From a virus, in IMG/VR virus record IMGVR_UViG_3300017773_000040, positions 1 through 37,531 of that record: 37,531 nucleotides of DNA, one strand, 5' to 3'. Positions 2 to 37,531 of the stretch are shown here, piece by piece. Both the position numbers and the translations under genes were made by a program. Every line of letters begins with the position of its first letter. The stretch's first letter is position 1. Under the pieces are notes generated by a model. The model saw only the letters and a list, made by a program, of their open reading frames with translations. It was not told the origin of the DNA and did no database searches.

Positions 2-2280
2 ATTGGTGGTAGAGAAAACCAAGTATCATCATCTGATTATGCTGTAGCTGTTGGTGGAAGAGAAAATCAAGTTTTAAATGTAGCTTATAGTACTATTGGC
101 GGTGGGTATAATAATAAAATTCACCATCAAAATGGAAACACTAATTCTTATAATTTTATAGGTGGTGGTCAAGGAAATTCAATAACTGGTTCTGCTATAC
201 AATATTCAAGTTTACTTGGAACTCAAGATTCAACGATAAAAGAATCATCTAATTCTTCTATAGTAGGTGGTCTACAAAATAAAATAGAACTAAGTAGTAA
301 CTATTCTTTACTTGGTGGTGGTAATGCAAATACTATATCAAGGTCTTTATCATCTGTATTATTAGGTGGTCAATATAATGAAATTTTAGGATCTCCAGCA
401 GGTAGTGGAATTGATACTGTTGGAAACTTTCTTGGGGGTGGTGGACTAAATCAATTGATAGCATCAGATTATGGATTTATTGGTGGGGGTGCTTTGGGTA
501 GTCTTAGAGGAAAGTCTGATTATTCTGCAATTGTTGGTGGTTTAAGTAATGAAATTTCATCAAGTGAATATTCTTTTATTGGTGGTGGCAATAATAATAC
601 TATGACCGATTCAAATAATGCATTTTTAGGTGGTGGTGTATCCAATAAACTAACTCACGCTTCATCCTCAGTTATAGTTGGTGGTGAATCTAATCACATA
701 AAACTTACTAAATATGCTTTTGTAGCAGGTGGATTTAATAATTCCATAGGAAATGAAAAATACGGAACTCAAACTGATGAAGTTAGTGGATCAAATTTTT
801 CAGCAATTTTAGGTGGTAGTTTTAATGGCATAACGGGATCACATTCTAGTATAATTGTTGGTGGTTTTAAAAATGTGATAGAAGCTGATTTTAGTATCAC
901 TTGGGGAAAGTCAACTGGATCATTTATAGGTGGTGGTAATAGCAACTTAATTAATGATGGTTTTAATGCATCTGCTGGTGGCGGTGGTAATTTTTCTAAT
1001 TCTACTATAGTAGGTGGTACACAAAACGAAATAAGAGCAAATCAATCATCTTTTATTGGAGGAGGATCAGAAAATCAAATGTATGGTCCTGCTGAAAAAT
1101 TCAATACCATTGGTGGTGGTAGATTTAATTCAATTAGAAATTTTTCTACATCTAGTGTTATAGCTGGTGGTGAACTAAATGTAATACAAAATTCTTTTAA
1201 AAGTGCGATTGCTGGTGGTGCTTCTAATGATATATCATCATCTGTTAATTCTTTTATCGGTGGTGGTGAAAGTAATGACATATTTGCATCACCTAGATCA
1301 AGTATTTTATCTGGAAGAGTTTCATTAATACAAAATGCACCTGATTCAACAATACTCAATAGTGGTGCTAGTAATGGCGCTAAAATACTTAGTGGCTCTG
1401 ATGCATCATTAGCTGCTGGCGGTGGTACTTTAATTTATGACTCTAAAAATTCTATTGCATTTAATACTAGTACCATACTTTCTAAATCAAGGCATTCTAT
1501 TGCATTAGGTGGTGGTGAAATTAAAAATAGTCCATATGCCTTTTTAGGAACTGGAATCAATAATAAAATTCATGGTTCTACGCTCACCACACACGGTCTT
1601 TACAACACTATATTAAATGGAACTCAGAATCATATTGAAGCTAGTGAAAATTCTTTTATAGGATTTGGTGATTCTGTTATTATAAGTGGGAGTGATAATG
1701 CTGCTATATTATCTGGTGATGGTCAATCAAATGATAGAGTTCAAATTTTAAATTCTAATCACAGTTTTATTGGAGTTGTAGAACAATACACATATATTTA
1801 CGATAGTCCGAACTCTGTTATTCTTTCCGGTGGCACCAATATGATAAGTGCGAGTGTTTCTGTCGGTAGTTCAAATGGACAGAATGTAATTATAGGCGGT
1901 TCAGGAAATGATATGATACCTGTCGCTTTTAACGGCAAACCACCTGAATATAACCTTATGGGTGTTGGATATCAAAATAAAATGTATGGTGCTACTTATT
2001 CAGTTATAATGGGTGGATATGAAAATGAAATATCATCATCATCAGTTGTTGCTCTTAACAATTATAATAGAGCAACAGGAAATTTTATAGGTAGTGGTTT
2101 TTACAATTGTATAAAAAATGGTGTAAATTCTTATTCTAGTATAGTGGGTGGGTATGAAAATGTTATTAACTCTTCCCCCTCTTCTTTTTCATATACTTTT
2201 ATTGGTGGTGGTCGATATAATCATATTAAGGATAGTCAATATTCTTCAATTCTTGGTGGTAGATATAATCAAATACCAGA
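2..2280 (+). repeat. IGGGxxNxI coding repeat array
   Basis: There are roughly 38 coding units of about 45 to 75 bp, each recognisable as (a/t)t(a/t)-ggtggtgg followed by a codon for Asn and then one for Ile, Leu or Met. The units are degenerate in DNA and vary in spacing, so this looks like an old protein repeat rather than a recent microsatellite. The array is incomplete at the left edge. Between about 1300 and 1900 the units are weak, with GGG replaced by SG, GT or GD. Confidence 0.75.
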
Positions 2281-3148
2281 TGATATTGATGATGTTTTTA
2301 TTATTGGAAGTAACATAACTGCTTCAGCAGCTAATACAACTCATGTAGAAAATTTATACTCATTGGGTAATATAAGTGGTTCATCAACCTCAACTGGTTC
2401 GTTTGGAAACCTAAAAGTTACTGGACCAGGTCAATCTATATTTGATGGTAGTGTTGGTATAAATTCCAGCACTGCTAATTACGCTGATTTAACAGTTGGG
2501 GGAACTGGTGATATACTAGCCTTACGAGCAAGTAGTGGAGCTGCTGGATTCACAATGTACGAAGCTGGAACTGGTAGATTTAATATGACCACTTTAAATG
2601 GTTCAAATGGAATTGCTTTTAAAGTTCCATCAACTACTGCTCTTACCATAAATTCTTCTGGCAATGCTTCATTTTCTGGAGATGTATCAGCTGCCAATGG
2701 ATTTTATCCTGATGCTGATAATGGAGCACAATTAGGAAATGCAAGTCTAAGATTTTCAGAACTGTTTGCCGTACGGACAATAACTGGTGGTGTATTTGAA
2801 ACTGGTTTAAGAACACAAAAAATTGGAGACAATCCAACGGGTACAGTTGTTGTTTGGACAGAAGATGGTTTAGTTCCTTGTGACTCGAATGAGGACGAAC
2901 TCGTAATGGGTGTAATTGAAAAAGGGAAAGATGAGCCAATCATAATGGGTGCTGAACCAGTATTGGTGACTGGTAAAGTGGATATTGGAGACTACATTGT
3001 AACCTCTGATAAAATAGGTCATGGAAAATCTGTAAAAAGAGGATATTTATTGAAGAAGGATTTATTTGGAAAAGTTATAGCTCAAGCATTAGAAAAAAGT
3101 GATGATAGTGATTCATGTTTGATTAAGTGTATGATTAGGAAAATGTAA
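2..3148 (+). CDS. Giant IGGG-repeat tail fibre/adhesin, 5' end outside window
   Basis: The frame is open from base 2 with no stop, so the true start lies upstream of the window; the TTG at 455 is only an internal codon. About 1048 codons are visible. Residues 1 to about 760 are close to 40 irregular units of roughly 20 residues with the pattern hydrophobic-GG(G)-xx-N-x-(I/L/M), for example IGGGRYNHI and VGGYENVI. Regular Gly and Asn turns of this kind suggest a beta-roll or beta-helix stalk comparable with YadA-type adhesin heads; that fold is inference. One ISGSSTSTGSFG module follows, then a C-terminal region with PVLVTGKVDIGDYIVTS and GHGK, which resembles phage intramolecular-chaperone (peptidase G2-like) domains. 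The stop overlaps the next start by 1 nt (TAATG), so translation is probably coupled. Likely role: host-contact fibre. The receptor is unknown. Confidence 0.8.
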   Translation: MGGRENQVSSSDYAVAVGGRENQVLNVAYSTIGGGYNNKIHHQNGNTNSYNFIGGGQGNSITGSAIQYSSLLGTQDSTIKESSNSSIVGGLQNKIELSSNYSLLGGGNANTISRSLSSVLLGGQYNEILGSPAGSGIDTVGNFLGGGGLNQLIASDYGFIGGGALGSLRGKSDYSAIVGGLSNEISSSEYSFIGGGNNNTMTDSNNAFLGGGVSNKLTHASSSVIVGGESNHIKLTKYAFVAGGFNNSIGNEKYGTQTDEVSGSNFSAILGGSFNGITGSHSSIIVGGFKNVIEADFSITWGKSTGSFIGGGNSNLINDGFNASAGGGGNFSNSTIVGGTQNEIRANQSSFIGGGSENQMYGPAEKFNTIGGGRFNSIRNFSTSSVIAGGELNVIQNSFKSAIAGGASNDISSSVNSFIGGGESNDIFASPRSSILSGRVSLIQNAPDSTILNSGASNGAKILSGSDASLAAGGGTLIYDSKNSIAFNTSTILSKSRHSIALGGGEIKNSPYAFLGTGINNKIHGSTLTTHGLYNTILNGTQNHIEASENSFIGFGDSVIISGSDNAAILSGDGQSNDRVQILNSNHSFIGVVEQYTYIYDSPNSVILSGGTNMISASVSVGSSNGQNVIIGGSGNDMIPVAFNGKPPEYNLMGVGYQNKMYGATYSVIMGGYENEISSSSVVALNNYNRATGNFIGSGFYNCIKNGVNSYSSIVGGYENVINSSPSSFSYTFIGGGRYNHIKDSQYSSILGGRYNQIPDDIDDVFIIGSNITASAANTTHVENLYSLGNISGSSTSTGSFGNLKVTGPGQSIFDGSVGINSSTANYADLTVGGTGDILALRASSGAAGFTMYEAGTGRFNMTTLNGSNGIAFKVPSTTALTINSSGNASFSGDVSAANGFYPDADNGAQLGNASLRFSELFAVRTITGGVFETGLRTQKIGDNPTGTVVVWTEDGLVPCDSNEDELVMGVIEKGKDEPIIMGAEPVLVTGKVDIGDYIVTSDKIGHGKSVKRGYLLKKDLFGKVIAQALEKSDDSDSCLIKCMIRKM

Positions 3149-8503: not shown

Positions 8504-8525
8504 TTATATTTATATATGAATAATT
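8504..8525 (+). promoter_or_regulatory. Putative phage promoter motif (TATATTTATATATGAATAATT)
   Basis: This 22-bp AT-rich block fills the gap before the gene at 8537 and is repeated exactly at 30271-30292, also in a short intergenic gap. Its core TATTTATA sits 23 nt before the start codon. The reverse complement of the core is TATAAATA, the T4 late-promoter box, but every gene lies on the + strand. A phage-specific + strand promoter is the simplest reading. Function is inferred from position and repetition only. Confidence 0.4.
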
Positions 8526-9360: not shown

Positions 9361-9951
9361 ATGTCATTTGATTTAACTAACATATTAGTATCAGAGGGTT
9401 TTCAAAATCTATTACAAGTTCGTGCTGATGATAAGACTATTTTTGATGGTCTAGGTAATACATTAGACGACTTTCGTCTTTCTGGTTCTTTTACTACAAG
9501 TGAATTTTTAGAAATAGAAAACGGAATATCTCAAACTGGTAATAAATTACACAGTCGAGGTGGAACTCTTTATTGGGGTGGAACAAATTTAGAATCATAT
9601 GGTGGTGGTGGTTTATCAAACATGGTTGAGGATACCACACCACAACTTGGTGGTAATTTAGATTTAAACTCTAAAGATATAGGTGGAACAGGAAATTTTC
9701 TTATACAAGGAACTGGTTCTTTAGATCAATTTAATGTTGGTGATAATTCTTTTGATTCTTATTTATCAATAACACCAACATCTGTTGAAAAAGACCTTTT
9801 CTTGGTTAAATCAGGAAGTTTTTCTGCATTTGAAGTTAATGATAAGGGAGTGGTAAATTTTGGTGGGTTTTCAAATGAACCTGATGTTGTTGAAGGTGGT
9901 TTTTATTATAATACAGATGAAAATGAATTTTATCTTGGAATAGGGGAATAG
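9361..9951 (+). CDS. Short fibre/virion protein with VSEGF anchor (196 aa)
   Basis: The N-terminus MSFDLTNILVSEGFQNLL is related to the (V/L)SDGF starts of the proteins at 16231, 20715 and 21596, suggesting a common attachment domain. Residues about 85-115 contain the fibre segment MVEDTTPQLGGNLDLNSKDI, of which a close copy occurs in the 1382-aa protein (VDDTSPQLGGDLDLNSNDI). The C-terminus has a beta-type segment ending YYNTDENEFYLGIGE. It looks like a minimal version of the larger fibres, an anchor plus one stalk motif and a small tip. It ends 1 nt before the next start. Confidence 0.7.
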   Translation: MSFDLTNILVSEGFQNLLQVRADDKTIFDGLGNTLDDFRLSGSFTTSEFLEIENGISQTGNKLHSRGGTLYWGGTNLESYGGGGLSNMVEDTTPQLGGNLDLNSKDIGGTGNFLIQGTGSLDQFNVGDNSFDSYLSITPTSVEKDLFLVKSGSFSAFEVNDKGVVNFGGFSNEPDVVEGGFYYNTDENEFYLGIGE

Positions 9952-9952
9952 A

Positions 9953-11413
9953 ATGCCTAGTTGGAAGAAGATTATAACAAGTGGTAGTAATGCTGTATTA
10001 AATCAAATAACTGCCTCAGTTGGATTTAAAGGAGATGGTAGTGGAATTACCAATGTAACTGCTGCTAGTGTAACTTTTGATAATGTAAGTAGTAAACCAA
10101 CTGGATTAGTAAGTGGTAGTTCTCAAATATCTACTGATATAAGTGGTTCATTTACATCTGTTAGTTCTTCTTTAGCAAGTAGATTAACAACTGCTGAATC
10201 CGAATTATCAAACACATTAATTAGTAGTAGTGCTCAAATTGCTACAGAAGTAAGTGGTGCTTTTACAGAAGTAAGTAGTTCTCTAAGTTCAAGAACAAGT
10301 ACATTAGAAACTACATTAACTTCTGAACAAGGTAATATTGATACATTAGAAAGTAGAGTAAATCAATCGGTAAAAACTGATGCTAGTCCAGTTTTTGCTG
10401 GATTAACTACAACTGGTAATGTTATAGTTCAAGGTGATATTACTGCTGAAAGAATGATAGTAAGTTCATCTGTTTCTATTATAACACAATCATTTTCTAG
10501 TGGTTCAACTATCTTTGGTGATGATAGTGATGATACTCATCAGTTTACAGGTTCATTAACAATTTCAGGTGCTTTTGAATTAAATGGAGATTCTTTTTCA
10601 ACAGCAGTTTCTTCATCAGCTGCAGCTGCTGGATTTGGTGGTGGTGGTAGTGGTGTTTCAAGCTATGATGATTTAACAAATGTTCCAGCTGGTATAATAT
10701 CAAGTTCAAATCAACTACCAAGTGGTATTATTAGTGCATCAGCTCAGATATCAACAACAATAAGTGGTTCTGTAACTTCTCTAAGTTCATCACTTGCTAG
10801 TAGACTATCAACTACTGAATTAGAATTAGAAAATACATTAATTAGTGGGAGTGCTCAAATTGCTACAGCAGTGAGTGGAGCTTTTGCTGATGTATCATCT
10901 AGTATAACATCAAGAGTAACAACTCTTGAAGGAACTGGAACAACACAAGGAGTTGGGCAAAGCAATAATGTAACATTTAATAAAATAACAACTACATCAG
11001 GACCAGATGTATTTGGTGGAAATGTTACTATTGCTGGAAACTTAACATTACAAGGATCACAAAGTTCTGCTGATACTTTAGTTATTGCTGACCAATTTGG
11101 GTTCTTTGCTTCTGGTTCAGAAGGCTCTAATCTTGATGCTGGTGTTTTGGTTCAAAGCGGTAGTATTGCTAATACAGGTAGTGCTATATACCACGATGTT
11201 ACTACTGCTTCTAATACAAATCCAAAAGGAGGCAGATGGTCTGTTGCTAAAGAGGTAAAGGTGGATGATAATGCAGTAACTCCAGGTGCTTATGTGGGGA
11301 CTGTTACTGTTGGTGGAGATGCTACAGAACCTGATGATGGTGATGTTCAATATGGTGTTGGGGAAATGTATATTACAAGTGATGGTGAAATATACATTTA
11401 TACAGGAAGTTAA
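9953..11413 (+). CDS. Fibre protein with MPSWKKI anchor and coiled Ser-rich stalk (486 aa)
   Basis: It begins MPSWKKIITSGSNAVLNQ, nearly the same start as the 112-aa protein at 11729. Residues about 50-150 and 245-315 are Ser/Thr-rich heptad-like repeats (SSSAQIATEVSGAF, SSLASRLTTAESELSNTL) that are duplicated within the gene and again in the 1382-aa protein. A VSSSVSIITQSFSSGST / DDTHQFTG block lies at about 165-200. The C-terminal 110 residues (from FGFFASGSEGSNLDAG) form a separate beta-rich tip ending in GEMYITSDGEIYIYTGS. Repetitive low-complexity fibre stalk with a distinct tip; a baseplate- or neck-attached fibre is likely. Confidence 0.75.
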   Translation: MPSWKKIITSGSNAVLNQITASVGFKGDGSGITNVTAASVTFDNVSSKPTGLVSGSSQISTDISGSFTSVSSSLASRLTTAESELSNTLISSSAQIATEVSGAFTEVSSSLSSRTSTLETTLTSEQGNIDTLESRVNQSVKTDASPVFAGLTTTGNVIVQGDITAERMIVSSSVSIITQSFSSGSTIFGDDSDDTHQFTGSLTISGAFELNGDSFSTAVSSSAAAAGFGGGGSGVSSYDDLTNVPAGIISSSNQLPSGIISASAQISTTISGSVTSLSSSLASRLSTTELELENTLISGSAQIATAVSGAFADVSSSITSRVTTLEGTGTTQGVGQSNNVTFNKITTTSGPDVFGGNVTIAGNLTLQGSQSSADTLVIADQFGFFASGSEGSNLDAGVLVQSGSIANTGSAIYHDVTTASNTNPKGGRWSVAKEVKVDDNAVTPGAYVGTVTVGGDATEPDDGDVQYGVGEMYITSDGEIYIYTGS

Positions 11414-23217: not shown

Positions 23218-23658
23218 ATGTCTATACCAAAACTAAAAGATTTACTAAACGAAAGAGACTACCATTTAACAAAACCACCGAGAAATGTTGCTGGGGTAGC
23301 AGTTATATCTGAAGGTCAAGTTCTTTGTGTAAAGCGTTCAGAGACTCAAGGTAAGTTTCCAAACTTTTGGTCACTTCCAATGGGTGGTGTTGAAAAGGGA
23401 GAGACTTTTGAAGAAGCTGGTGCTCGTGAATTAAAAGAAGAAACAATGCTTGACATTAACCCTAAAGATTTAGTATATTTAGGTACGATAAAAGACGGAG
23501 TGCATAATCGTCTATGTAAAGTTTATAAAGCAGAGATGGATGGTAAACCTGAACCTACATTAGACCACGAACATACTGATTGGGGTTACTATGATAAAGA
23601 TAGTTTACCAAGACCTTTTGAAGATAGAATGAGACAAGTGTTGGAATTAAACTTATGA
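23218..23658 (+). CDS. Nudix hydrolase
   Basis: A nucleoside-diphosphate-linked hydrolase (146 aa). The Nudix box is at residues 56-78 (GGVEKGETFEEAGARELKEE, then TML), matching Gx5Ex7REUxEExGU except that the final Gly is Met77. The substrate cannot be read from the sequence; ADP-ribose, NADH, Ap4A or capped RNA ends are possible. Residues 1-12 (MSIPKLKDLLNE) resemble the starts of two other proteins here and a T4-type capsid-targeting peptide (see findings). A strong aggag site precedes the ATG. It overlaps the next gene by 4 nt (ATGA). That neighbour is an NMN-adenylyltransferase-like enzyme, and the pairing recalls NadM-Nudix fusions known in other phages and bacteria, which supports an NAD/ADP-ribose substrate. 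Confidence 0.88.
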   Translation: MSIPKLKDLLNERDYHLTKPPRNVAGVAVISEGQVLCVKRSETQGKFPNFWSLPMGGVEKGETFEEAGARELKEETMLDINPKDLVYLGTIKDGVHNRLCKVYKAEMDGKPEPTLDHEHTDWGYYDKDSLPRPFEDRMRQVLELNL

Positions 23659-26408
23659 GTTTAAAAAAGTTAGTAGAAGAAATAACCAAACCCGTTATTG
23701 ATGAGATGGGAATAGTTGCTGGTGATGGAACTATCAAAGGTGGTTCTAAACTTTCTAAGATAAAGAAGATGAAAAAGAAAGGACACACTTCAGTTCCTTA
23801 TGGTAGTGGTTACAAAAAAGTAGATGAAGCACAAGCTGTAAAAGGTAGTAAAGTAGAAAAGTTTATTACAGGTCACAATCTTACTATGAAGGGTAAGAAA
23901 TATAAAGAAATAGAATTTGAGACATTAGGTGTTGATAATAGTTCAAAGATGGTTAATCTAAAAATATTAAAACCAAAAAACTTATTTGGTATGAAGACAC
24001 CTGTAAAATTCCAAACATTAAGAAGAGGACCTTTTACAAAAACTGATACTAGTAAAAAATTAAAAGAACAAAAACAAATCAAAAAAACTATCGGTGTATT
24101 CGGTGGTAGATTTCAACCATTTCATTCAGGTCATCTTGCTACATATAAGTGGTTGTCCAAACAAGTTGATGAAGCTTACATAACCACATCTAATATTAAG
24201 AAACCACCAAGACACCCTATGAACTTCAAAGAGAAAGTTCGTCATATGGTAAAGGTGGGTATTCCTAAGAATCGTATCATTGAAGAAAAGACACCTTATG
24301 TGGCAACTAACTTACTTAAAAAGTTTGATTCTGAAACCACGGCAGTAGTTTATGCTTTCGGTCAAAAAGATGCTGGTCGTTTAAAAGCTGGAACTAAAAA
24401 GGGTGGTGGTAAAACTTATTATCAAGATTACAAAAAAAGTAAAGGTGATATACGAGGATTTGAAGAACATGGATATTTTGTTACTGCTCCACAATTTGGA
24501 AATATAAGTGGAACAAAAACAAGAGATATGTTGGGAAATCCAAAAGTAGATGATAAAGAAAAATTAAAGTTTTTCAAAAAAACATTTGGATATTACGATA
24601 AAGGTTTGTATAATATGATGACGAATAAGTTTAGAAAGTTATACGAAGTTTATCTTGGATTATTAGAAAGTACAAGCACCCAATCTGATGGAGTAGATGA
24701 TGGTCCTGGTTTTTTATCAAGTTTAAAATCTTACTTACTTAGGGGTGAAAAAGAAGCTGGTAGATTAGGTTGGGAGATTGCTAAAAACATAATTGATGAT
24801 GAAAACTATTATAGTCAAGAATTTGACATTCCAAAATACCCAAACGGCCCAATAGGTTCAGTATCATACGGACCTGCTGGAGTAGCTGAGCCAAGTGCAG
24901 CTAATGATATGGATTTAGTTGGAAGTAAATTATGGAATCATTGGTTAGACCATATTGATATGATTTTAAAAAATCAAGATTATGAATATACAGACAAACT
25001 AAAAAAATCAAGAAAGTCAGTTATTAAACATAGTAAAAATACATTAAATCAATTAGAAAAAGAAGAGCCAACTAATACAGATCAAGATAGAGGAAATGAA
25101 CAACATGATGAATATGATATAGTAAAAGAGGTTTATTCACTTACAAGTAATTTAGAAAAAAATGGAAAGGAGTTATTATTAATGGGAGGAGCTTACGGAC
25201 ACATGAGTCATCCTTTTGATGACAAGGATTTAACATTCGGTGATTTGAAAAAAATCATCACATTAGGATTGAGTGGTCAATTAAACAGAGAAGACAATGT
25301 TACTGAAAAAACAGACGGACAAAACCTAATGGTGAGTTTTAAAAATGGTAAATTAATTGCTGCTCGTAACAAAGGACATTTGAAAAACAAAGGTGAAACA
25401 GCTTTAACTATTAAAGATGTTGAGAAAAAATTTAAAGGACGAGGAGCAATCAGAGATGCTTTTGTTTACGCCATGAGGGATTTGACAAAGGCAATCGGTG
25501 CTCTTTCTAAAAAACAACAAGACAAGATATTTGGTAATGGTAGTAAGTTCATGAGTTTAGAAGTCATGTGGCCTGCTAGTGAGAATGTCGTAAACTATGA
25601 TATTACAGAATTGGTTTTTCATGGGGCGATGGAATATGATGATAGTGGTAGGGTAATAGGACAAGCAAAGGATAGTGCTAGAATGCTACAAGGTATGATA
25701 AAACAAGTCAATCAACACATTCAAAAACACTACAAGATATCAAAACCAAACTTTGTCAATGTTCCAAAACATCAAGACTTTGGGAAAATGAAAAAGAAAT
25801 ACATTGGTAGATTACAAAAATTACAAAACATATATTCGTTAAAAGACAATGACACCTTTGCACTATATCATCAGATGTATTGGCAAGAATTTATTTTTAA
25901 TGCAAGTAAACAATTTAAATTTAAAATCACAAATGAAATGTTGGTTAAGTTAACTAAACGATGGGCATTTTTTGACAAATCATATACTATACCTATGATG
26001 AAAAAAGATATGAAAGACAATCCAAAGTTTTTAGATTGGGCATTGACCACCGATAAGATTGATAAAAACAGAATGGTCAAGGATAACATGAAACCATTTG
26101 AAGAATTATTCTTTGAGGTCGGTGCTGAGATAATGAAAAACATGGATGGTTGGATGGCTGTTAATCCAGCAAAGTCAGTACAGAATATGAGAAAGAAACT
26201 CAAGAAAGCAGTTTCGGATGTGAGAGCTGGTGGTGATTTGAAAAAATTAAACAGATTAAAGGTTCAGTTAGATAGATTAAATGCTATCGGTGGATTTGAT
26301 TCTATTGTTCCATCAGAGGGAATCGTGTTTAAGTATAATGGAAACACATATAAGTTCACAGGTGCATTTGCTCCTATAAATCAAATAACAGGTTTGATGT
26401 TTTTTTAA
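23655..26408 (+). CDS. Fusion of NMN-adenylyltransferase-like and KxDG ligase-like domains (917 aa)
   Basis: N-terminal segment MSLKKLVEEI plus a Lys-rich linker (1-145). Then an HxGH nucleotidyltransferase: GVFGGRFQPFHSGH ends at 160 and ISGTKTR is at 284-290, the two signatures of the NMN/pantetheine adenylyltransferase superfamily. Residues about 335-530 are unassigned. A covalent nucleotidyltransferase (DNA/RNA ligase-like) domain follows: motif I KTDG at 552-555 (Lys552 the expected AMP-carrying residue), an RNKG segment at 571-574, a motif III-like FMSLEVMWP with Glu636, and motif IV EGIVFK at 888-893 with YKFTG just after. A helical stretch of about 200 residues (690-880) separates motifs III and IV, much longer than usual. 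Coupled to the Nudix gene by ATGA. Possible roles: NAD synthesis plus strand sealing. Ligase activity and substrate (DNA or RNA) are unproven. Confidence 0.8.
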   Translation: MSLKKLVEEITKPVIDEMGIVAGDGTIKGGSKLSKIKKMKKKGHTSVPYGSGYKKVDEAQAVKGSKVEKFITGHNLTMKGKKYKEIEFETLGVDNSSKMVNLKILKPKNLFGMKTPVKFQTLRRGPFTKTDTSKKLKEQKQIKKTIGVFGGRFQPFHSGHLATYKWLSKQVDEAYITTSNIKKPPRHPMNFKEKVRHMVKVGIPKNRIIEEKTPYVATNLLKKFDSETTAVVYAFGQKDAGRLKAGTKKGGGKTYYQDYKKSKGDIRGFEEHGYFVTAPQFGNISGTKTRDMLGNPKVDDKEKLKFFKKTFGYYDKGLYNMMTNKFRKLYEVYLGLLESTSTQSDGVDDGPGFLSSLKSYLLRGEKEAGRLGWEIAKNIIDDENYYSQEFDIPKYPNGPIGSVSYGPAGVAEPSAANDMDLVGSKLWNHWLDHIDMILKNQDYEYTDKLKKSRKSVIKHSKNTLNQLEKEEPTNTDQDRGNEQHDEYDIVKEVYSLTSNLEKNGKELLLMGGAYGHMSHPFDDKDLTFGDLKKIITLGLSGQLNREDNVTEKTDGQNLMVSFKNGKLIAARNKGHLKNKGETALTIKDVEKKFKGRGAIRDAFVYAMRDLTKAIGALSKKQQDKIFGNGSKFMSLEVMWPASENVVNYDITELVFHGAMEYDDSGRVIGQAKDSARMLQGMIKQVNQHIQKHYKISKPNFVNVPKHQDFGKMKKKYIGRLQKLQNIYSLKDNDTFALYHQMYWQEFIFNASKQFKFKITNEMLVKLTKRWAFFDKSYTIPMMKKDMKDNPKFLDWALTTDKIDKNRMVKDNMKPFEELFFEVGAEIMKNMDGWMAVNPAKSVQNMRKKLKKAVSDVRAGGDLKKLNRLKVQLDRLNAIGGFDSIVPSEGIVFKYNGNTYKFTGAFAPINQITGLMFF

Positions 26409-26423
26409 AATAGAGGTTATACT

Positions 26424-26900
26424 ATGGGTAGAAATATAGAGAAAGTAAAAAAGTTAATAGCTGGTGTTGGTGGTAAAGGAACTCCACGAATTGGATATAC
26501 AGGAAAAACTATTGAAATGAGAAAAGAGGGTGAGGTTTGGGAAGAGGCAAGTGGTAGAAAATTTACTAAAGTAGATGGTAAAAGAAAACAAATTACTAAG
26601 ATACCACCAAAAGGATTTGACAAATGTGATGATTGTGAAAAACTAATCCTTAAAACTATTGACCAACAAACTTATAATAGATTTAAAAAGTGTAAGTATT
26701 GTCAGATAGATTTTGAGATGAAATTAAAAAGAGAAGGTAAGTGGGAAGATTGGGTAAAAGAAATGGAAGAAAAAAGATGGGAAAAGGTTCTTGCTGAGTA
26801 TGAATCCGAAATGATGGGAATAAAAGATGCGGATAGTCCGTTTGATGAAACAGTAGCAAAAGCTATTGGAAATCACGAACAAAATCAAAGTAAAATATGA
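26424..26900 (+). CDS. Zinc-ribbon protein just upstream of terminase (158 aa)
   Basis: The protein has two CxxC pairs, Cys68/Cys71 (CDDC) and Cys90/Cys93 (CKYC), a likely zinc ribbon. A basic, Gly-containing N-terminus (KKLIAGVGGKGTPRIGYTGK) precedes it and a long charged helix (about 95-140, rich in E, K and W) follows. It occupies the position of the small terminase subunit (T4 gp16) directly before the large subunit, overlapping it by 4 nt (ATGA). A DNA-binding packaging role is therefore possible, but the sequence shows no clear gp16-type signature and phage zinc ribbons have many roles. gaggt precedes the ATG. Confidence 0.7.
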   Translation: MGRNIEKVKKLIAGVGGKGTPRIGYTGKTIEMRKEGEVWEEASGRKFTKVDGKRKQITKIPPKGFDKCDDCEKLILKTIDQQTYNRFKKCKYCQIDFEMKLKREGKWEDWVKEMEEKRWEKVLAEYESEMMGIKDADSPFDETVAKAIGNHEQNQSKI

Positions 26901-28480
26901 GTAACTTAAAACAAGCAATAAAACAAAACTATTTAAAGTGTGCTAAAGATCCTTCATACTTTATAAACGAGTTTTGTGTTATACAACATCCTCAAAGGGG
27001 TAAGATAAAATTTAAACTTTATCCATATCAGTTTGATGTATTAAAAGAGTATGAAAACCATGACTATAATGTTGTATTAAAATCTCGTCAATTAGGTATA
27101 TCTACTTTAACGGCTGCTTATTCACTTTGGATGATGTTATTTCACGCTGATAAAAATATTTTATGTATTGCTACAGCAAAAGATACTGCTAAAAACTTGG
27201 TAACTAAAGTTCGTATTATGTACGAAGGATTGCCACAATGGTTGAAAACTGCCATTGTCGAAAATAATAAACTTTCACTTATCTTTAAAAATGGTTCACA
27301 GATAAAAGCTATTGCTTCTAATGAATCTGCTGGTCGTTCTGAGGCACTATCTCTACTAATCTTAGACGAGGCTGCTTTCATCGACAAGATTGATACCATA
27401 TGGACTGCTGCTCAACAGACATTGGCTACTGGTGGACAATGTATTGGTATATCAACTCCAAATGGTGTAGGAAATTGGTTTCATAAAACTTGGATGGATG
27501 CTACTGATGGTCTTAATAAATTTAATACTATTAAACTTCATTGGACAGATCATCCAGAAAGAGATCAAAATTGGAGAACAGAACAAGATAGAATATTAGG
27601 TCCAAGTAAGGCTGCTCAAGAATGTGATGCTGACTTTTTAAGTTCTGGTCGTTCTGTTGTAGATCCTGCTATTTTAGAATGGTATAAAGAAAAGATGTGT
27701 TGTGAACCAAATGAAAAAAGTGGATTTGATAGAAACCTTTGGATATGGGATTATCCAAATTATGATAAGAATTATTTAATAAGTGCTGATGTAGCTCGTG
27801 GGGATGGAACAGACTATTCAACTGCTCAAGTATTTGATATAGAAGAGATGGAACAAGTAGCAGAATACAAAGGTCAGCTAGGAACAACCGAGTTTGGAAA
27901 CTTTTTAATTGAATTAGCTACAAAATATAACGATGCTCTACTTGTTGTGGAAAATAACAACATAGGGTGGGCAACTTTACAAACTATCATTGATAGAGGA
28001 TATGAAAATCTCTTTTATCAAGAAAAAAATCATCTCATCGTGGATGAGGACATTCAGCATACAAACAAATATAGAAGTATAGATAGAAACAAGATACCAG
28101 GTTTTACTACAACAATGAAATCAAAACCATTAATTATTGCTAAGATGGAAGAATATACTAGAGAAAAGATGGTAAAGATAAAATCAACACGATTAATTGA
28201 TGAACTTTTTGTATTTATATATAAGAATAGTAAAACTGAAGCATTAGATGGATATAATGATGACCTTGTTATGTCGTATTCTATTTTGTTATGGATTAGA
28301 GATACTGCGATTCGTATTCAATCGGAAAGAAACGAATTTCAAAGTAGTTTAGTTGGTGCAATTGGAAACCTAAATGGTAATACAACTGTAATGACACCAA
28401 ATAGTGTTCCAAAAAATAATCCATATAAAGTAAAAATTAATGAAAATGAAGAAGAAGATTTAACTTGGCTATTGGGGTAA
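26897..28480 (+). CDS. Terminase large subunit (T4 gp17-like)
   Basis: The DNA-packaging motor ATPase and headful nuclease that docks on the portal. ATPase domain: Walker A-type SRQLGIST at 63-70, Walker B LLILDEAA with Asp157/Glu158, and coupling motif STPNG at 186-190. RNase H-like nuclease domain: Asp298 in SADVARGDG, Glu352 in VVENNN and Asp455/Asp456 in YNDDL, the expected acidic triad. Length 527 aa is somewhat shorter than T4 gp17 (about 610). The Walker A lysine seen in T4 (SRQLGKT) is replaced by Ile, while Lys62 lies just before the motif. It is followed by the portal after 3 nt. Confidence 0.95.
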   Translation: MSNLKQAIKQNYLKCAKDPSYFINEFCVIQHPQRGKIKFKLYPYQFDVLKEYENHDYNVVLKSRQLGISTLTAAYSLWMMLFHADKNILCIATAKDTAKNLVTKVRIMYEGLPQWLKTAIVENNKLSLIFKNGSQIKAIASNESAGRSEALSLLILDEAAFIDKIDTIWTAAQQTLATGGQCIGISTPNGVGNWFHKTWMDATDGLNKFNTIKLHWTDHPERDQNWRTEQDRILGPSKAAQECDADFLSSGRSVVDPAILEWYKEKMCCEPNEKSGFDRNLWIWDYPNYDKNYLISADVARGDGTDYSTAQVFDIEEMEQVAEYKGQLGTTEFGNFLIELATKYNDALLVVENNNIGWATLQTIIDRGYENLFYQEKNHLIVDEDIQHTNKYRSIDRNKIPGFTTTMKSKPLIIAKMEEYTREKMVKIKSTRLIDELFVFIYKNSKTEALDGYNDDLVMSYSILLWIRDTAIRIQSERNEFQSSLVGAIGNLNGNTTVMTPNSVPKNNPYKVKINENEEEDLTWLLG

Positions 28481-28483
28481 AAC

Positions 28484-30247
28484 ATGGCAGACAATTTATT
28501 TACAAGACTTGGTAGATTATTTCAATCTAATGTAATAATTAGAAAGACAGATGATAATCGTTTAGTGGTAAAGGATTTAGACTTTACACAAACAAGTTTA
28601 CAATCAAATTTTATAGATCGATATCAGAGGTTGATACAAAATACATATTCAAATCCATATTCGGTTGCTCAAAACAGACGAGCTGCTTATGAGATAAGAA
28701 AACATGATTTATTTAGAGATTATGAGTTAATGGATCAAGACCCGATTATTGCTTCTGCTCTTGACATATATTCAGACGAAAGTACGGTTACAAATATTGA
28801 GGGTGAAATTTTAAAAGTAAAAAGTGAAAATACAAAAGTACAAAAGATTTTACATAATTTATTTTACGATGTTTTAAACATAGAATTTAATTTGTGGAGT
28901 TGGATTCGTAATATGACAAAGTATGGTGATTTTTATTTACAATTAGATATTGTGGATAAATTTGGAGTAGTAAATGTAAAACCTGTTTCTGCTTATGACA
29001 TTACAAGATTAGAAGACCATGATCCTGCTAATCCACAATTAATTCAATTTGAGATAAATAGTGAAAAAAAAGAAATGAAAGAAAACTATGAAGTTGCTCA
29101 CTTTCGTGTTTTATCCGACACAAACTTTTTACCATATGGGCGCTCAATGTTAGAGAACGGAAGAAAGATATTCAAACAATTGACTTTGATGGAAGACGCT
29201 ATGTTGATACACCGTATTATGAGAGCGCCTGAAAAACGAATCTTTAAGATTGATGTTGGAAATATACCACCAAGAGAAGTTGAACAATTTATGCAAAAAA
29301 TCATTAATAAGATGAAGAAGACTCCTGTGATTGACCAAGCTACTGGTGAATATAATTTAAAATATAATGTGGAATCTGTAACTGAAGATTACTTTCTACC
29401 TGTACGAGGTGGAGATAGTGGAACTGAAATAGATACTTTACCTGGCTTGTCCAACAATGACCAAATAGACGACATAGAATATCTACGAAACAAACTTATG
29501 GCATCCTTGAGAATACCAAAGGCTTTCTTAGGATATGAAGAAGGTTTAAGTGGTGGTAAAGCTACACTTGCTGCTGAAGATGTTCGTTTTGCTCGTACAA
29601 TTGAAAGGTTACAAAAGATTATTGTTAGTGAATTAACTAAAATTGGTATTGTACACCTTTACTCACAAGGATTTAATGATTCTGATTTAATTGATTTTCA
29701 GTTAGAGTTACAGAATCCATCAATGATTCATGAGCAAGAAAAATTAGAATTGATGAGTCAACAACTTGATATTGCTGAAAAAGCTATAGATTCAAAGTTG
29801 TTTAGTCGTAAGTGGATATATGACAATGTTTTTGATTTAAGTGACCAGCAAAAACTTGATATTTACGAAGCTATAGTAGAAGATACTAAACAAAAATTTC
29901 GTTTAGAGCAAATAGAAACAGAAGGAAGTGATCCTGCTAAAGAACCACCACCAAGTGAAGATGAAGATGACGATGATAATTTTGAAGTAAGCAGAAAAGG
30001 TAAATGGGGTGGAAGTGAAAAAGATCCTTTTAAAGACCAAGAAGATATGAAAGATAAATATGGACATGAAAGTCTAAAAGATGTCGATAGATCATATGGA
30101 AAAAGGGAATTTAAAGGTAAATCACCTCTTGCCACATCAAAAGCTAGTACAGTTGTTGCTCGTGAAGGTATATTAGATCAACTTAAAGAAAAGTTTCCTA
30201 AAGACAAATCTTCTATGTTGAGTGAAGATAATATAATAAAAGAGTAA
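28484..30247 (+). CDS. Portal protein (T4 gp20-like)
   Basis: The dodecameric ring at the head vertex through which DNA enters and leaves. The region around residues 62-105 (YEIRKHDLFRDYELMDQDPI, ASALDIYSDEST) and the later SGGKATLAAEDVRFARTIERLQ (about 355-377) are typical of T4-type portals. 587 aa is close to the usual 520-560. The last 100 residues are acidic then basic (EPPPSEDEDDDDNFEV, SRKGKWGGSEKD) and probably disordered, an extension beyond the core. Placed right after terminase, as in T4-type genomes apart from the missing sheath and tube genes. A 69-bp gap with a promoter-like motif follows. Confidence 0.93.
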   Translation: MADNLFTRLGRLFQSNVIIRKTDDNRLVVKDLDFTQTSLQSNFIDRYQRLIQNTYSNPYSVAQNRRAAYEIRKHDLFRDYELMDQDPIIASALDIYSDESTVTNIEGEILKVKSENTKVQKILHNLFYDVLNIEFNLWSWIRNMTKYGDFYLQLDIVDKFGVVNVKPVSAYDITRLEDHDPANPQLIQFEINSEKKEMKENYEVAHFRVLSDTNFLPYGRSMLENGRKIFKQLTLMEDAMLIHRIMRAPEKRIFKIDVGNIPPREVEQFMQKIINKMKKTPVIDQATGEYNLKYNVESVTEDYFLPVRGGDSGTEIDTLPGLSNNDQIDDIEYLRNKLMASLRIPKAFLGYEEGLSGGKATLAAEDVRFARTIERLQKIIVSELTKIGIVHLYSQGFNDSDLIDFQLELQNPSMIHEQEKLELMSQQLDIAEKAIDSKLFSRKWIYDNVFDLSDQQKLDIYEAIVEDTKQKFRLEQIETEGSDPAKEPPPSEDEDDDDNFEVSRKGKWGGSEKDPFKDQEDMKDKYGHESLKDVDRSYGKREFKGKSPLATSKASTVVAREGILDQLKEKFPKDKSSMLSEDNIIKE

Positions 30248-30270: not shown

Positions 30271-30292
30271 TTATATTTATATATGAATAATT
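30271..30292 (+). promoter_or_regulatory. Putative phage promoter motif, exact copy of 8504-8525
   Basis: Twenty-two bases identical to those at 8504-8525, in the 69-bp gap between the portal gene and the gene at 30317. The TATTTATA core is 35 nt before that start codon. Exact repetition in two unrelated intergenic gaps 22 kb apart, inside a genome with almost no spacer DNA, argues for function; a promoter is most likely. Confidence 0.45.
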
Positions 30293-31764: not shown

Positions 31765-32367
31765 ATGAATAAAAAATTATTAGTAGATGTAAGACCATTT
31801 GAAATATCTCGTCAGAAAATTGATGAGAGTATTAAAGAAAATGATGGTCGTTTAATAGTAAAGGGTGTCCTACAGAGAGCCGAATCTAAAAATCAAAATG
31901 GTAGAGTTTACCCACGAGAAGTATTATTGAAAGAAGTTTCTAAATATTTAGAAGAACAAGTTAGTGAGAGACGAGCACTCGGAGAACTCGACCATCCAGA
32001 ATCATCTGTAGTTAATTTGAACAATGCGTCACATAATGTTATTGAAATGCATTGGGATGGCGATGACCTTTTAGGAACTGTAGAAGTTCTATCCACACCA
32101 AGTGGGAACATATTGAAAGAATTATTTAAATCAGGTATCAAACTTGGTATTTCATCAAGAGGATTGGGTTCGGTAGAACCGATGAGAGAATCTGAAGGTG
32201 AGGATGGAACTGTTGAGGTTCAACCTGACTTTGAACTTATTGCATTTGATTTCGTATCAAATCCATCTACACATGGTGCTTTCATGAGACCTGTTAACGA
32301 AGGTGTAGAAAAACAAAAACCTGAAACAAGAATCGAATCTATTATTAACTCTATAATGAGGGGATAA
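31765..32367 (+). CDS. Prohead core protease (T4 gp21-like)
   Basis: A serine protease that matures the head by cutting scaffold and targeting peptides, in T4 after (L/I)xE. Seen here: ELDHPESS with His77, and KLGISSRGLGSV with Ser130/Ser131, the conserved His- and Ser-bearing segments of the gp21/herpesvirus assemblin-like family, followed by FELIAFDFVSNPSTHGAFM. At 200 aa it is close to the T4 length (about 212). It lies after the portal as in T4. Its presence is important for the targeting-peptide idea about the Nudix, ligase and small proteins nearby. Confidence 0.93.
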   Translation: MNKKLLVDVRPFEISRQKIDESIKENDGRLIVKGVLQRAESKNQNGRVYPREVLLKEVSKYLEEQVSERRALGELDHPESSVVNLNNASHNVIEMHWDGDDLLGTVEVLSTPSGNILKELFKSGIKLGISSRGLGSVEPMRESEGEDGTVEVQPDFELIAFDFVSNPSTHGAFMRPVNEGVEKQKPETRIESIINSIMRG

Positions 32368-34361: not shown

Positions 34362-34775
34362 ATGAGTTTTTTAGCAACATTAGGAAAAGCCGCTGGTAGT
34401 TTACTTGGTGGTGATGCAATTAAAGACATCGGAAATATTGTAGATGATTTACATACTTCAGGTGAAGAGAAAGCAGAAGCTAAACAAAAGATTACACAGA
34501 TATTAGCACAAGCCGAACAAGCGGCTCAAGCTCAAGTATCTGCTCGTTGGGAAGCTGATTTAAAACATGGTAGTTGGTTAAGTAAAAATATTAGACCAAT
34601 TACATTAATCTTCCTTACTGGTGTATTTGTAATACTAAGTGTATTTGATGGCAACATGGGTGAGTTCACAATTGGTGAAGCTTATGTTCCAGTTTATCAA
34701 ACTCTATTGATGACTGTATATGCGGCTTATTTTGCTGGTCGTTCAATTGAAAAAGTAAAGAAGGTAACTAAGTAG
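34362..34775 (+). CDS. Holin of the 3TM family (137 aa)
   Basis: The sequence ARWEADLKHGSWLSKNIRPITLIF (about 61-84) and the closing VYAAYFAGRSIEKVKKV are characteristic of the 3TM holin family first noted in gene-transfer agents. The N-terminus is amphipathic (FLATLGKAAGSLLGG); an Ala/Gln-rich helix (about 30-60) leads to hydrophobic segments at about 78-97 and 108-130. It would form membrane holes releasing the GH108 lysozyme (22699). It is translated together with the next gene, whose GTG start overlaps this stop by 1 nt. A ggggtaagg ribosome-binding region precedes the ATG. Confidence 0.8.
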   Translation: MSFLATLGKAAGSLLGGDAIKDIGNIVDDLHTSGEEKAEAKQKITQILAQAEQAAQAQVSARWEADLKHGSWLSKNIRPITLIFLTGVFVILSVFDGNMGEFTIGEAYVPVYQTLLMTVYAAYFAGRSIEKVKKVTK

Positions 34776-35557: not shown

Positions 35558-36550
35558 ATGAAAGACCAAATTACATATAACGGAAAAAAATACCAACGAG
35601 TAAATGAAGCTAGTATGGAACTCAAAAAATTAGAAGATGCTATTAAGATGTTTCAAAAGAAAATTAAGAAACAAGGTAGAGTTACTAATGCTAGAGATGA
35701 AGACCACCTTGAAAATCTAATAAAGATTTATAAACAAATGGGTGGTAAAAAAATAAAAGAATCTGTAAGTGAAAATCTTGATAGAAGAGTAACTGTAAAA
35801 GAAGTTCGCTCTTGGTTAAAAAAATTAGAAGAGTTTCGTTATAGAAAAATAAGAAATGTTGATGCTAGAAGAGTTACTTCTTTTATCAATAGTAATTTAA
35901 GTGAAACAGATTTACCTAATTCTTTACAGAAGAAATGGGAACATGCCAAATACGGTAGAGAAAAACATTTGGCAGACAAATTCATCAAAGAAAAAATTAG
36001 TCAGAAGTGGAGCGAGATTGCTCAAAATGAGGGTGTTGAAATGAAAAATATTAGTTTATTAGGAATAGTAGAAGACCTTGTGCCAGTTAAGGAACGAGAG
36101 CAAGGGGTAAACAAGTTCGAGGTCATTGAGGCTGTAAAAAACTATCAGATGATAGGTGGACAACTTTTCAAAGACAATGGTATTATCGAAGTTGCTAAAC
36201 AACTTGTCGGTATTGCTGAATCTGCTCAAAATCATGTTTTAAGTGAAACTGATGATTGGTTTGATTCTGTTTCTGTAAAAAGAAATATGAAGGAATTAAA
36301 AGGTTTAACGGGTCAATTTAAAAAAGCTGCTCTTGAAGCCAATGCCGTAAACGAAAGATTAAATGCTCTATATGAGGATATGGGAAATATTTTAAATAGA
36401 TACTATGACATTGAAGAAGCTATGGATCCTGTTGGTAAAGAGGATGGTGATATAGATAATGACGGTGATAAAGATGATAGTGATGAGTATCTAGCAAAAC
36501 GCCGTAAAGCTATTTCTAAGGCAATAAAAAAACAAAATGGAGATAAGTAG
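35558..36550 (+). CDS. Helical protein with EF-hand-like Ca-binding loop (330 aa)
   Basis: A mostly helical charged protein. It starts MKDQITYNGKKYQRVNEASM; an ESVSE segment at 68-72 resembles the ESVNE linkers of the 551-aa protein. Near the C-terminus (about 292-315) lies DGDIDNDGDKDDSDEYLAKR, a DxDxDGDxxDSD loop like EF-hand or dockerin calcium sites, which also occurs in scaffold-type proteins of T4-like marine phages as I recall. This might be the functional counterpart of a head-core scaffold. No ribosome-binding site is obvious. It overlaps the next gene by 14 nt. Confidence 0.65.
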   Translation: MKDQITYNGKKYQRVNEASMELKKLEDAIKMFQKKIKKQGRVTNARDEDHLENLIKIYKQMGGKKIKESVSENLDRRVTVKEVRSWLKKLEEFRYRKIRNVDARRVTSFINSNLSETDLPNSLQKKWEHAKYGREKHLADKFIKEKISQKWSEIAQNEGVEMKNISLLGIVEDLVPVKEREQGVNKFEVIEAVKNYQMIGGQLFKDNGIIEVAKQLVGIAESAQNHVLSETDDWFDSVSVKRNMKELKGLTGQFKKAALEANAVNERLNALYEDMGNILNRYYDIEEAMDPVGKEDGDIDNDGDKDDSDEYLAKRRKAISKAIKKQNGDK

Positions 36551-36845
36551 TACATTTATTTATGTCTCATTGACATTATGGCAAATCGGTTTTATTATAG
36601 GAATATTATTAAAGTTATTTTACAAAAATGATAAAGCTAAAAAGGTTTTTACGAATACATCAACACCAAAAGCTGTTGAGGTCGTACTTCCAAAAAAAAC
36701 AAAAGAAGTCGGACATATTGAAATCGAGATGAAAAAAAATATAGCACTACAAAAACCAACAAAGTCATCTATTAAATCGGATGAAGTGATAAAAGGTAAA
36801 GTAGTGACACAGAAAGAAAAACTTAAACAACTTAGAAGAGGTTAG
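36537..36845 (+). CDS. Single-pass membrane protein (102 aa)
   Basis: One N-terminal hydrophobic segment (about residues 6-28, FIYVSLTLWQIGFIIGILLKLF) is followed by a Lys-rich soluble tail of about 70 residues (KKTKEVGHIEIEMKKN, VTQKEKLKQLRRG). No cleavage site is apparent, so it is probably a membrane anchor with a cytoplasmic tail. It lies 2 nt before the actin-like gene and is likely cotranscribed, so it could be a membrane partner of that filament protein; this is a guess from position. The start is inside the previous gene, 14-nt overlap. Confidence 0.6.
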   Translation: MEISSTFIYVSLTLWQIGFIIGILLKLFYKNDKAKKVFTNTSTPKAVEVVLPKKTKEVGHIEIEMKKNIALQKPTKSSIKSDEVIKGKVVTQKEKLKQLRRG

Positions 36846-36847
36846 AT

Positions 36848-37531
36848 ATGGCAAAAGGTTTAGATTGTGGTACATCATTCTATATTGCTGCTACAGAAGA
36901 GCTAGTTAAAAAACAAAGAAATGCATTCTTAACTGTCGATGGGGAGGTGAACCAAGTCAAGAGAATGTTAAAACGGCAAGGAATTCCCTTTGTCGAAAAA
37001 GCTAGTAAGGTTCATATAGTTGGACAACACGCTTTCAATTATGCTCAAATATTCTCTACAGCAGAACTTAAAAGACCAATGAAAAGTGGTCTATTAAATC
37101 CTACAGAGAAAGATGCTCTACCAGTTCTAAACGCAATAATCGGAGAGTTGTTGGGTGATGCTAAAGATGGAGAAACTTGTGTTTATTGCATTCCATCTAA
37201 ACCTATCGATGTCGAAAGGGAAGTATCATATCACGAAGATGTGTTGAGAACGATAATAGAACAATACGGATACAATGTGAAAAAGATAGAGGAGGCAGTT
37301 GCGATTGGATATGAAGGATTGGTTGATACTCAGCTAACTGGTGTAGCCATCTCGATGGGTGCTGGTATGTGTAACATAGCAGTTATGTATCAAGGGATGA
37401 CTGCCCTATCTTTTAGTGTCAGTCGTGGTGGAGATTGGGTAGATGAAAATGTTTCTATGGACACAGGAGTATCAAAAGCTAAGGTAACTAATATTAAAGA
37501 AACATCAACTACACTTGATTTATCTGCTGCT
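36848..37531 (+). CDS. Actin/MreB-like protein, 3' end outside window
   Basis: The frame stays open for 228 codons to the window edge. The order of motifs follows actin/MreB proteins: phosphate-1 loop GLDCGTS at 4-10; a KRPMKSGLLNPTEKDA segment (compare MreB RPxxDGVI); VYCIPSKPIDVEREV (compare VPxxxTxVERRA); KKIEEAVAIGYEG (compare EPxAAAIG); then the phosphate-2 position SMGAGMCNIAVM and SRGGDWVDENV (compare GGDxxDE). The phosphate-2 segment lacks the usual Asp (DIGGGT), so nucleotide hydrolysis may be altered. The adenosine motif would be downstream. A filament role in DNA positioning or head assembly is inference. agaggt precedes the ATG; the gene starts 2 nt after the membrane protein. Confidence 0.75.
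   Translation, partial: MAKGLDCGTSFYIAATEELVKKQRNAFLTVDGEVNQVKRMLKRQGIPFVEKASKVHIVGQHAFNYAQIFSTAELKRPMKSGLLNPTEKDALPVLNAIIGELLGDAKDGETCVYCIPSKPIDVEREVSYHEDVLRTIIEQYGYNVKKIEEAVAIGYEGLVDTQLTGVAISMGAGMCNIAVMYQGMTALSFSVSRGGDWVDENVSMDTGVSKAKVTNIKETSTTLDLSAA

Follow-up and report, generated by a model that had tools for sequence, protein, structure and literature searches.

The window, a stretch of 37,531 nucleotides of viral DNA (IMG/VR record IMGVR_UViG_3300017773_000040), ends within an actin gene, which lies downstream of terminase, portal and head maturation protease genes (Table 1). With the major head protein gene present in contig L001, these genes confirm the T4-type structural region described in the initial annotation. 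The one-helix membrane protein reported directly upstream of the actin is likewise borne out (mean hydropathy 2.08 over 19 residues), its gene ending 2 nt ahead of the actin start. The complete actin gene, including the stop-terminated 3' part, is found in L001 (7396-8415, 339 aa), where the part shared with the window is identical. Directly behind it is a gene for ribosomal protein bS21 (L001:8405-8665; PF01165, E 6e-12), followed by an acidic protein at the scaffold position and then by the major head protein (phrog_138). The acidic protein is a putative scaffold by position and composition, and is without a family match. RpsU is also encoded in the corresponding region of Microcystis phage Mel-JY01, from which the actin is absent.

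Table 1. Features of the actin locus in the window, and the genes adjoining archaeal volactins.
Feature	Position	Strand	Evidence or remark
Terminase large subunit	26897..28480	+	phrog_2 E 1.4e-48; 54-55% identity to Flavobacterium phage immuto, Microcystis phage Mel-JY01
Portal protein	28484..30247	+	phrog_213 E 1.3e-73
Putative late promoter ATATTTATA, of the unit running through the protease to the actin	30273..30281	+	motif confined to spacers
Prohead (head maturation) protease, bounding the actin slot upstream	31765..32367	+	phrog_207 E 5.8e-56
Holin-like gene, 2 kb upstream of the actin	34362-34775		phrog_3427
330-aa protein	35558..36550	+	helical part WFD...NRYYDIEE conserved at this slot in related phages that lack the actin
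102-aa one-helix membrane protein, candidate actin anchor	36537..36845	+	conserved tail SDEVIKGKVVTQKEKLKQLRRG
Actin gene of the Volactin family, codons 1-228 of 339, truncated at the window end	36848..37531	+	PF25216 E 6.2e-53 (fragment), 4.5e-71 (full protein)
Phosphate-1 motif GLDCGT, residues 4-9	36857..36874	+	Asp6, Gly8, Thr9 invariant alignment columns
IEEA segment, residues 147-150	37286..37297	+	invariant Glu149 aligned with the MreB catalytic Glu/Gln (alignments)
Phosphate-2 loop SMGAGMC, residues 169-175	37352..37372	+	Ser169 replaces the Asp of DIGGGT; Ser family-wide
DUF7139 (PF23600) genes adjoining archaeal volactins	L176:3878-4834, L177:3980-4903, L168:2527-3483, L167:448-1386		

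The sequence ATATTTATA occurs at window positions 8506, 23192 and 30273, each time in an intergenic spacer on the coding strand and never in window coding sequence, and it is also present before head genes in L001 and L072. Its core, TATTTATA, is the reverse complement of the T4 late promoter TATAAATA. The T4 sequence itself is absent from the window coding strand, where it is TATTTATA that is enriched in spacers instead, with three copies in the window spacers, a number that none of 2000 spacer shuffles reached. This would suggest that ATATTTATA is probably the late promoter of this phage group. There is no copy between the protease and the actin, and the actin therefore appears to be part of a transcription unit starting near 30273.

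Two other regions of the window can be described. A long ORF at 2-3148 is made up of IGGGxxNxIxxS-type repeats with a tail-fibre-like end domain, and resembles the head repeats of trimeric autotransporter adhesins. Between the endolysin and the terminase, at 23218-26408, a NUDIX-like ORF is followed by a nucleotidyltransferase-like ORF of 917 residues.

The actin belongs, with very little room for doubt, to the Volactin family (PF25216), against which the full protein scores 240.4 bits for a cut-off of 35, covering profile positions 1-321 of 321. The E value of this match to the full profile, 4.5e-71, excludes a chance resemblance. The Pfam family MreB_Mbl (PF06723) is passed marginally, at 33 bits for a cut-off of 27, while the NCBIfam cut-offs are not reached for either MreB (25.1 bits, cut-off 293) or MamK (23 bits, cut-off 400). 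These curated scores, with a loop of SMGAGM and not DIGGGT, exclude an aberrant MreB. No ParM or Alp family is found among the Pfam and NCBIfam matches, and a search of PHROGs gave no credible match.

An AlphaFold model based on 31 aligned relatives (pLDDT 88, pTM 0.86) has MreB and the MamK filament as its best matches among solved structures (E 3.5e-13 to 6.3e-13, TM 0.66-0.69). The identity to MreB in these matches is about 16-18%, and such values do not in themselves prove polymerisation. The 50 best solved matches are to MreB, MamK, Mbl and BeeR, then to actin, Arp2/3 and FtsA entries; neither Hsp70 nor sugar kinases appear in this list. Predicted viral proteins in BFVD give remote fold matches only, for example Gp506 of phage G and plant-virus Hsp70 homologues. 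Profile and predicted model together identify a Volactin-family protein with an actin fold. The original description as an actin/MreB-like protein thus stands as to actin homology, with neither a non-actin fold nor a closer relationship to Hsp70 or sugar kinases emerging, and is revised as to family, which is Volactin and not MreB.

The motifs of the nucleotide site follow the order seen in actin and MreB, with phosphate 1 (GLDCGT) and phosphate 2 (SMGAGMC) as first described, and extension of the gene past the window adds the adenosine motif, VIGGGTSLVKGF, in L001. Asp6, Thr9, Glu149 and the adenosine GG are invariant in an alignment of 31 phage, bacterial and archaeal sequences. The phosphate-2 loop of MreB is DIGGGT, and its alteration to SMGAGMC had been taken as the mark of a special, perhaps non-hydrolysing, actin. 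The substitution itself is present, but it is not peculiar to this gene. Indeed, the Asp position is occupied by Ser in the archaeal, planctomycete and phage Volactin members surveyed. The archaeal loops are SMGAGM, SFGAGM or SVGAGM, and that of the archaeal member L164 is exactly the SMGAGM of the window actin; those of Planctomycetota are S[FC]GGGM and those of huge phages S[FYC]G[AGS]GM. The exception is a remote planctomycete protein, L174, with a degenerate Ala-containing loop. One odd string returned by the survey looks like a mismatch of the search pattern, and the haloarchaeal loops were taken from Haloarcula and Natrinema members, standing in for HVO_2015 of Haloferax volcanii.

The Haloferax volactin forms dynamic filaments in vivo, the tips of which bind the membrane (PMC10869688), and an SMGAGM loop is therefore no sign of an inactive protein. 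Nor does the loop point to a dead scaffold, since the Ser is family-wide and the catalytic Glu and phosphate-1 Asp are kept. The argument from the loop to a non-hydrolysing actin was accordingly dropped.

The actin is present in at least 124 IMG/VR contigs, or 182 by profile search, and its presence among head genes in at least 124 viral contigs excludes a cellular gene in a mis-binned contig. In one uncultured marine T4-type clade of about 180 contigs, it occupies a slot with the prohead protease gene on one side and the scaffold and capsid genes on the other. Of 80 distinct loci, 65 show both the actin and the major capsid gene, always with the actin first, and in 26 out of 26 the protease comes before the actin. 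Ranked by terminase and capsid, the closest isolated phages are Flavobacterium phage immuto, Microcystis phage Mel-JY01 and Rhodothermus phage RM378. The huge phage LR756508, like immuto and Mel-JY01, has no actin in the interval from the protease (or the helical WFD protein) to the capsid gene. Of these three, Mel-JY01 and LR756508 retain the WFD-type protein, S21 and a scaffold-type gene.

When viral contigs are ranked by their capsid protein, the actin is present in each of the ten that reach 58% identity and extend more than 2.5 kb upstream, although in L349 and L351 it was recognised only by tblastn. At 55% capsid identity the actin is carried by one contig of two. No actin was found by motif in the approximately 30 remaining contigs at 51-55% capsid identity, and tblastn gave no credible actin match in most of these or in immuto, Mel-JY01 and LR756508. 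The marine phage volactins form one group in the tree, with 97/100 support. On this distribution the actin is a lineage-specific addition to the marine T4-type clade. A sequence filed under Candidatus Pelagibacter (L084) groups with the marine phage volactins.

The one-helix membrane protein has its hydrophobic helix near the N terminus, with a WQ motif within the helix, and a strongly conserved C-terminal consensus of SDEvIKGKVkTQK.KLK.LRG. It is found ahead of the actin in 70 of the 80 distinct loci (64 recognised by pattern, a further 6 by inspection), and the other 10 loci have no more than 1.1 kb of upstream sequence. A reverse search with the one-helix protein recovered 80 loci, with the actin downstream in all 77 that could be tested and the other three ending too early. 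The two genes abut within about 3 nt in 48 loci and are elsewhere up to 3.4 kb apart. In the case of L349 the order of the two genes is swapped and both are retained. That both have been kept through rearrangement argues for a functional pair, though all of these loci share descent, and co-occurrence inside one clade is in part the result of shared descent and linkage. The one-helix protein has no match in 50,697 phage records, and neither a Pfam family above cut-off nor a DNA-binding domain was found in it.

Volactins are present in two further groups of phages, in both cases in structural regions. In a small group around LR745208 (485 kb) the actin is near a tail-sheath-like gene. A larger group, centred on LR756511 (595 kb), numbers at least 108 contigs and has the actin between baseplate-type genes and the terminase. 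This larger group includes L083:15001-16017 and L256-L335, some of its contigs being over 500 kb, and the most constant neighbour adjoining the actin is a soluble protein of 78 residues, with no constant membrane protein. In the tree, the volactins of huge phages are placed apart from those of the marine clade, and the archaeal and planctomycete volactins also form separate groups, though L083 is on a very long branch and its placement is unsure. One sequence filed under an Actinomycetota genome, L116, is a huge-phage fragment with the same order of actin and tail-sheath-like gene as LR745208.

Volactins are common in cellular genomes, with scores above cut-off in 59 of the 149 Planctomycetota and 10 of the 97 Thermoplasmatota genomes. 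All eight of the Thermoplasmatota genomes with strong volactin matches have a gene for a DUF7139 membrane protein within about 0.7 kb, and this multi-helix protein is also encoded beside the volactin genes of two haloarchaeal plasmids, from Haloarcula and Natrinema. DUF7139 is thus a candidate membrane partner of the cellular volactin. The phage partner has no DUF7139 match above cut-off. Given that DUF7139 adjoins the archaeal volactins, pairing with a membrane protein recurs across volactins, with unrelated partners. In a bacterial gas vesicle cluster (L118:2980-16846), which includes GvpL/GvpF twice, GvpK, a gas vesicle protein, a CDC48-type AAA protein and an ArsA-type ATPase, there is a Volactin-family actin (9890-10999), with an FtsZ gene after it.

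The reading that we prefer, and hold tentatively, is that the actin is made late and forms a membrane-anchored filament by which head assembly is organised at the membrane. The late, membrane-linked use suggested for this gene at the outset is a reasonable inference, and is strengthened by the strict co-occurrence with the one-helix protein. The actin would bind ATP and polymerise, and the conserved cytoplasmic tail of the one-helix protein would bind the filament or its tip, fixing it to the inner membrane. The anchored filament might then serve as a platform or track on which portal, scaffold and capsid protein are brought together at the membrane for prohead assembly, or might alternatively position the growing heads. 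Since T4 proheads begin on the inner membrane, assisted by the viral chaperone gp40 and host YidC (PMC9958956), a membrane platform is plausible. The lack of a constant membrane-protein neighbour in the larger group of huge-phage volactins speaks against this reading, and the position of the actin gene alone is no proof that its product acts on heads. Indeed, immuto, Mel-JY01 and LR756508 make the same type of head without an actin, which means that it is dispensable for T4-type head assembly as such.

Other uses of the actin have to be weighed against this. AlpC, a well-studied phage actin, acts on replicating phage DNA (PMC4446434), and the haloarchaeal actin salactin affects DNA distribution (PMC10746226). 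By analogy with AlpC or PhuZ, the protein might position or segregate the phage DNA or the replication site, in which case the location among head genes would be incidental or would reflect delivery of DNA to the packaging site. This is unlikely, however, in that AlpC is early and is paired with a DNA-binding adaptor (PMC4446434), whereas the partner here is a membrane protein in which no DNA-binding domain was found, and the actin is within the head-gene run in all of the loci where this can be tested. A membrane partner would also fit an actin that interferes with or rebuilds the host cell by displacing MreB-type filaments and altering shape, envelope growth or lysis, as would the holin-like gene upstream. 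MreB is the nearest solved relative, and cell shape is affected by the Haloferax volactin (PMC10869688). Against this, identity to MreB is only about 16-18% and the protein is nearer to the archaeal and planctomycete volactins, which makes copolymerisation with MreB unlikely and host remodelling as a whole improbable.

In T4, small core proteins are encoded between the protease and the scaffold. The same slot here, and the family-wide absence of the phosphate-2 Asp, could be accounted for by an actin-fold protein that does not form filaments, being either an ATP-dependent chaperone of assembly or a structural component of the prohead core. That the catalytic Glu is kept, that a member of the family forms dynamic filaments in vivo (PMC10869688) and that the strict partner is a membrane protein all make this quite unlikely.

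Several known systems come close to this one. The actin belongs over its full length to the family of Volactin VolA (HVO_2015, PF25216) of Haloferax volcanii, and shares with the archaeal volactins that were read (Haloarcula, Natrinema and Thermoplasmatota) the nucleotide motifs, including the phosphate-2 Ser, and an adjoining membrane protein. It differs from them in being phage-encoded within a head-gene operon, in having a one-helix partner unrelated to DUF7139 and in forming its own clade (97/100). The AlpC/AlpA pair of the CGP3 prophage of Corynebacterium glutamicum similarly combines, in one operon, the genes of a phage-encoded actin and its dedicated partner. AlpC is, however, of prophage origin and acts on DNA, and AlpA is a DNA-binding adaptor that functions early, in replication (PMC4446434), while here there is a membrane partner and a head-gene operon. 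MreB and MamK, the best solved matches, share the actin fold with an RP[ML]..G segment, but the window actin lacks the phosphate-2 Asp and scores far below their NCBIfam cut-offs. If the proposal is right, the likeness to the PhuZ spindle of jumbo phages would be that of a phage-made filament organising the infected cell, although PhuZ is a tubulin and the protein here is an actin.

The literature covered on volactin, salactin and jumbo and huge phages makes no mention of volactin-type actins in phages; subscription papers and preprints were outside this scope, and an earlier mention is possible. A broader proposal would be that volactin-type actins are spread over several tailed-phage lineages and that in the marine T4-type clade the actin, together with the one-helix protein as its dedicated anchor, makes a viral filament, attached to the membrane, on which proheads are begun or positioned, as an actin-based counterpart in head assembly of the PhuZ spindle. 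Taken as a whole this is possible, though doubtful.

A known actin family, described to date from haloarchaea, is thus found in a new genetic, and probably functional, setting, with an archaeal-type actin in the head-gene operon of a T4-type phage. The short conserved tail of the one-helix partner is a directly testable candidate ligand of actin. There are also handles here on the cellular volactin, namely DUF7139, which may be its membrane partner in archaea, and the volactin within a gas vesicle cluster. If the preferred reading is true, it would mean that phages use membrane actin filaments to organise the assembly of their virions.
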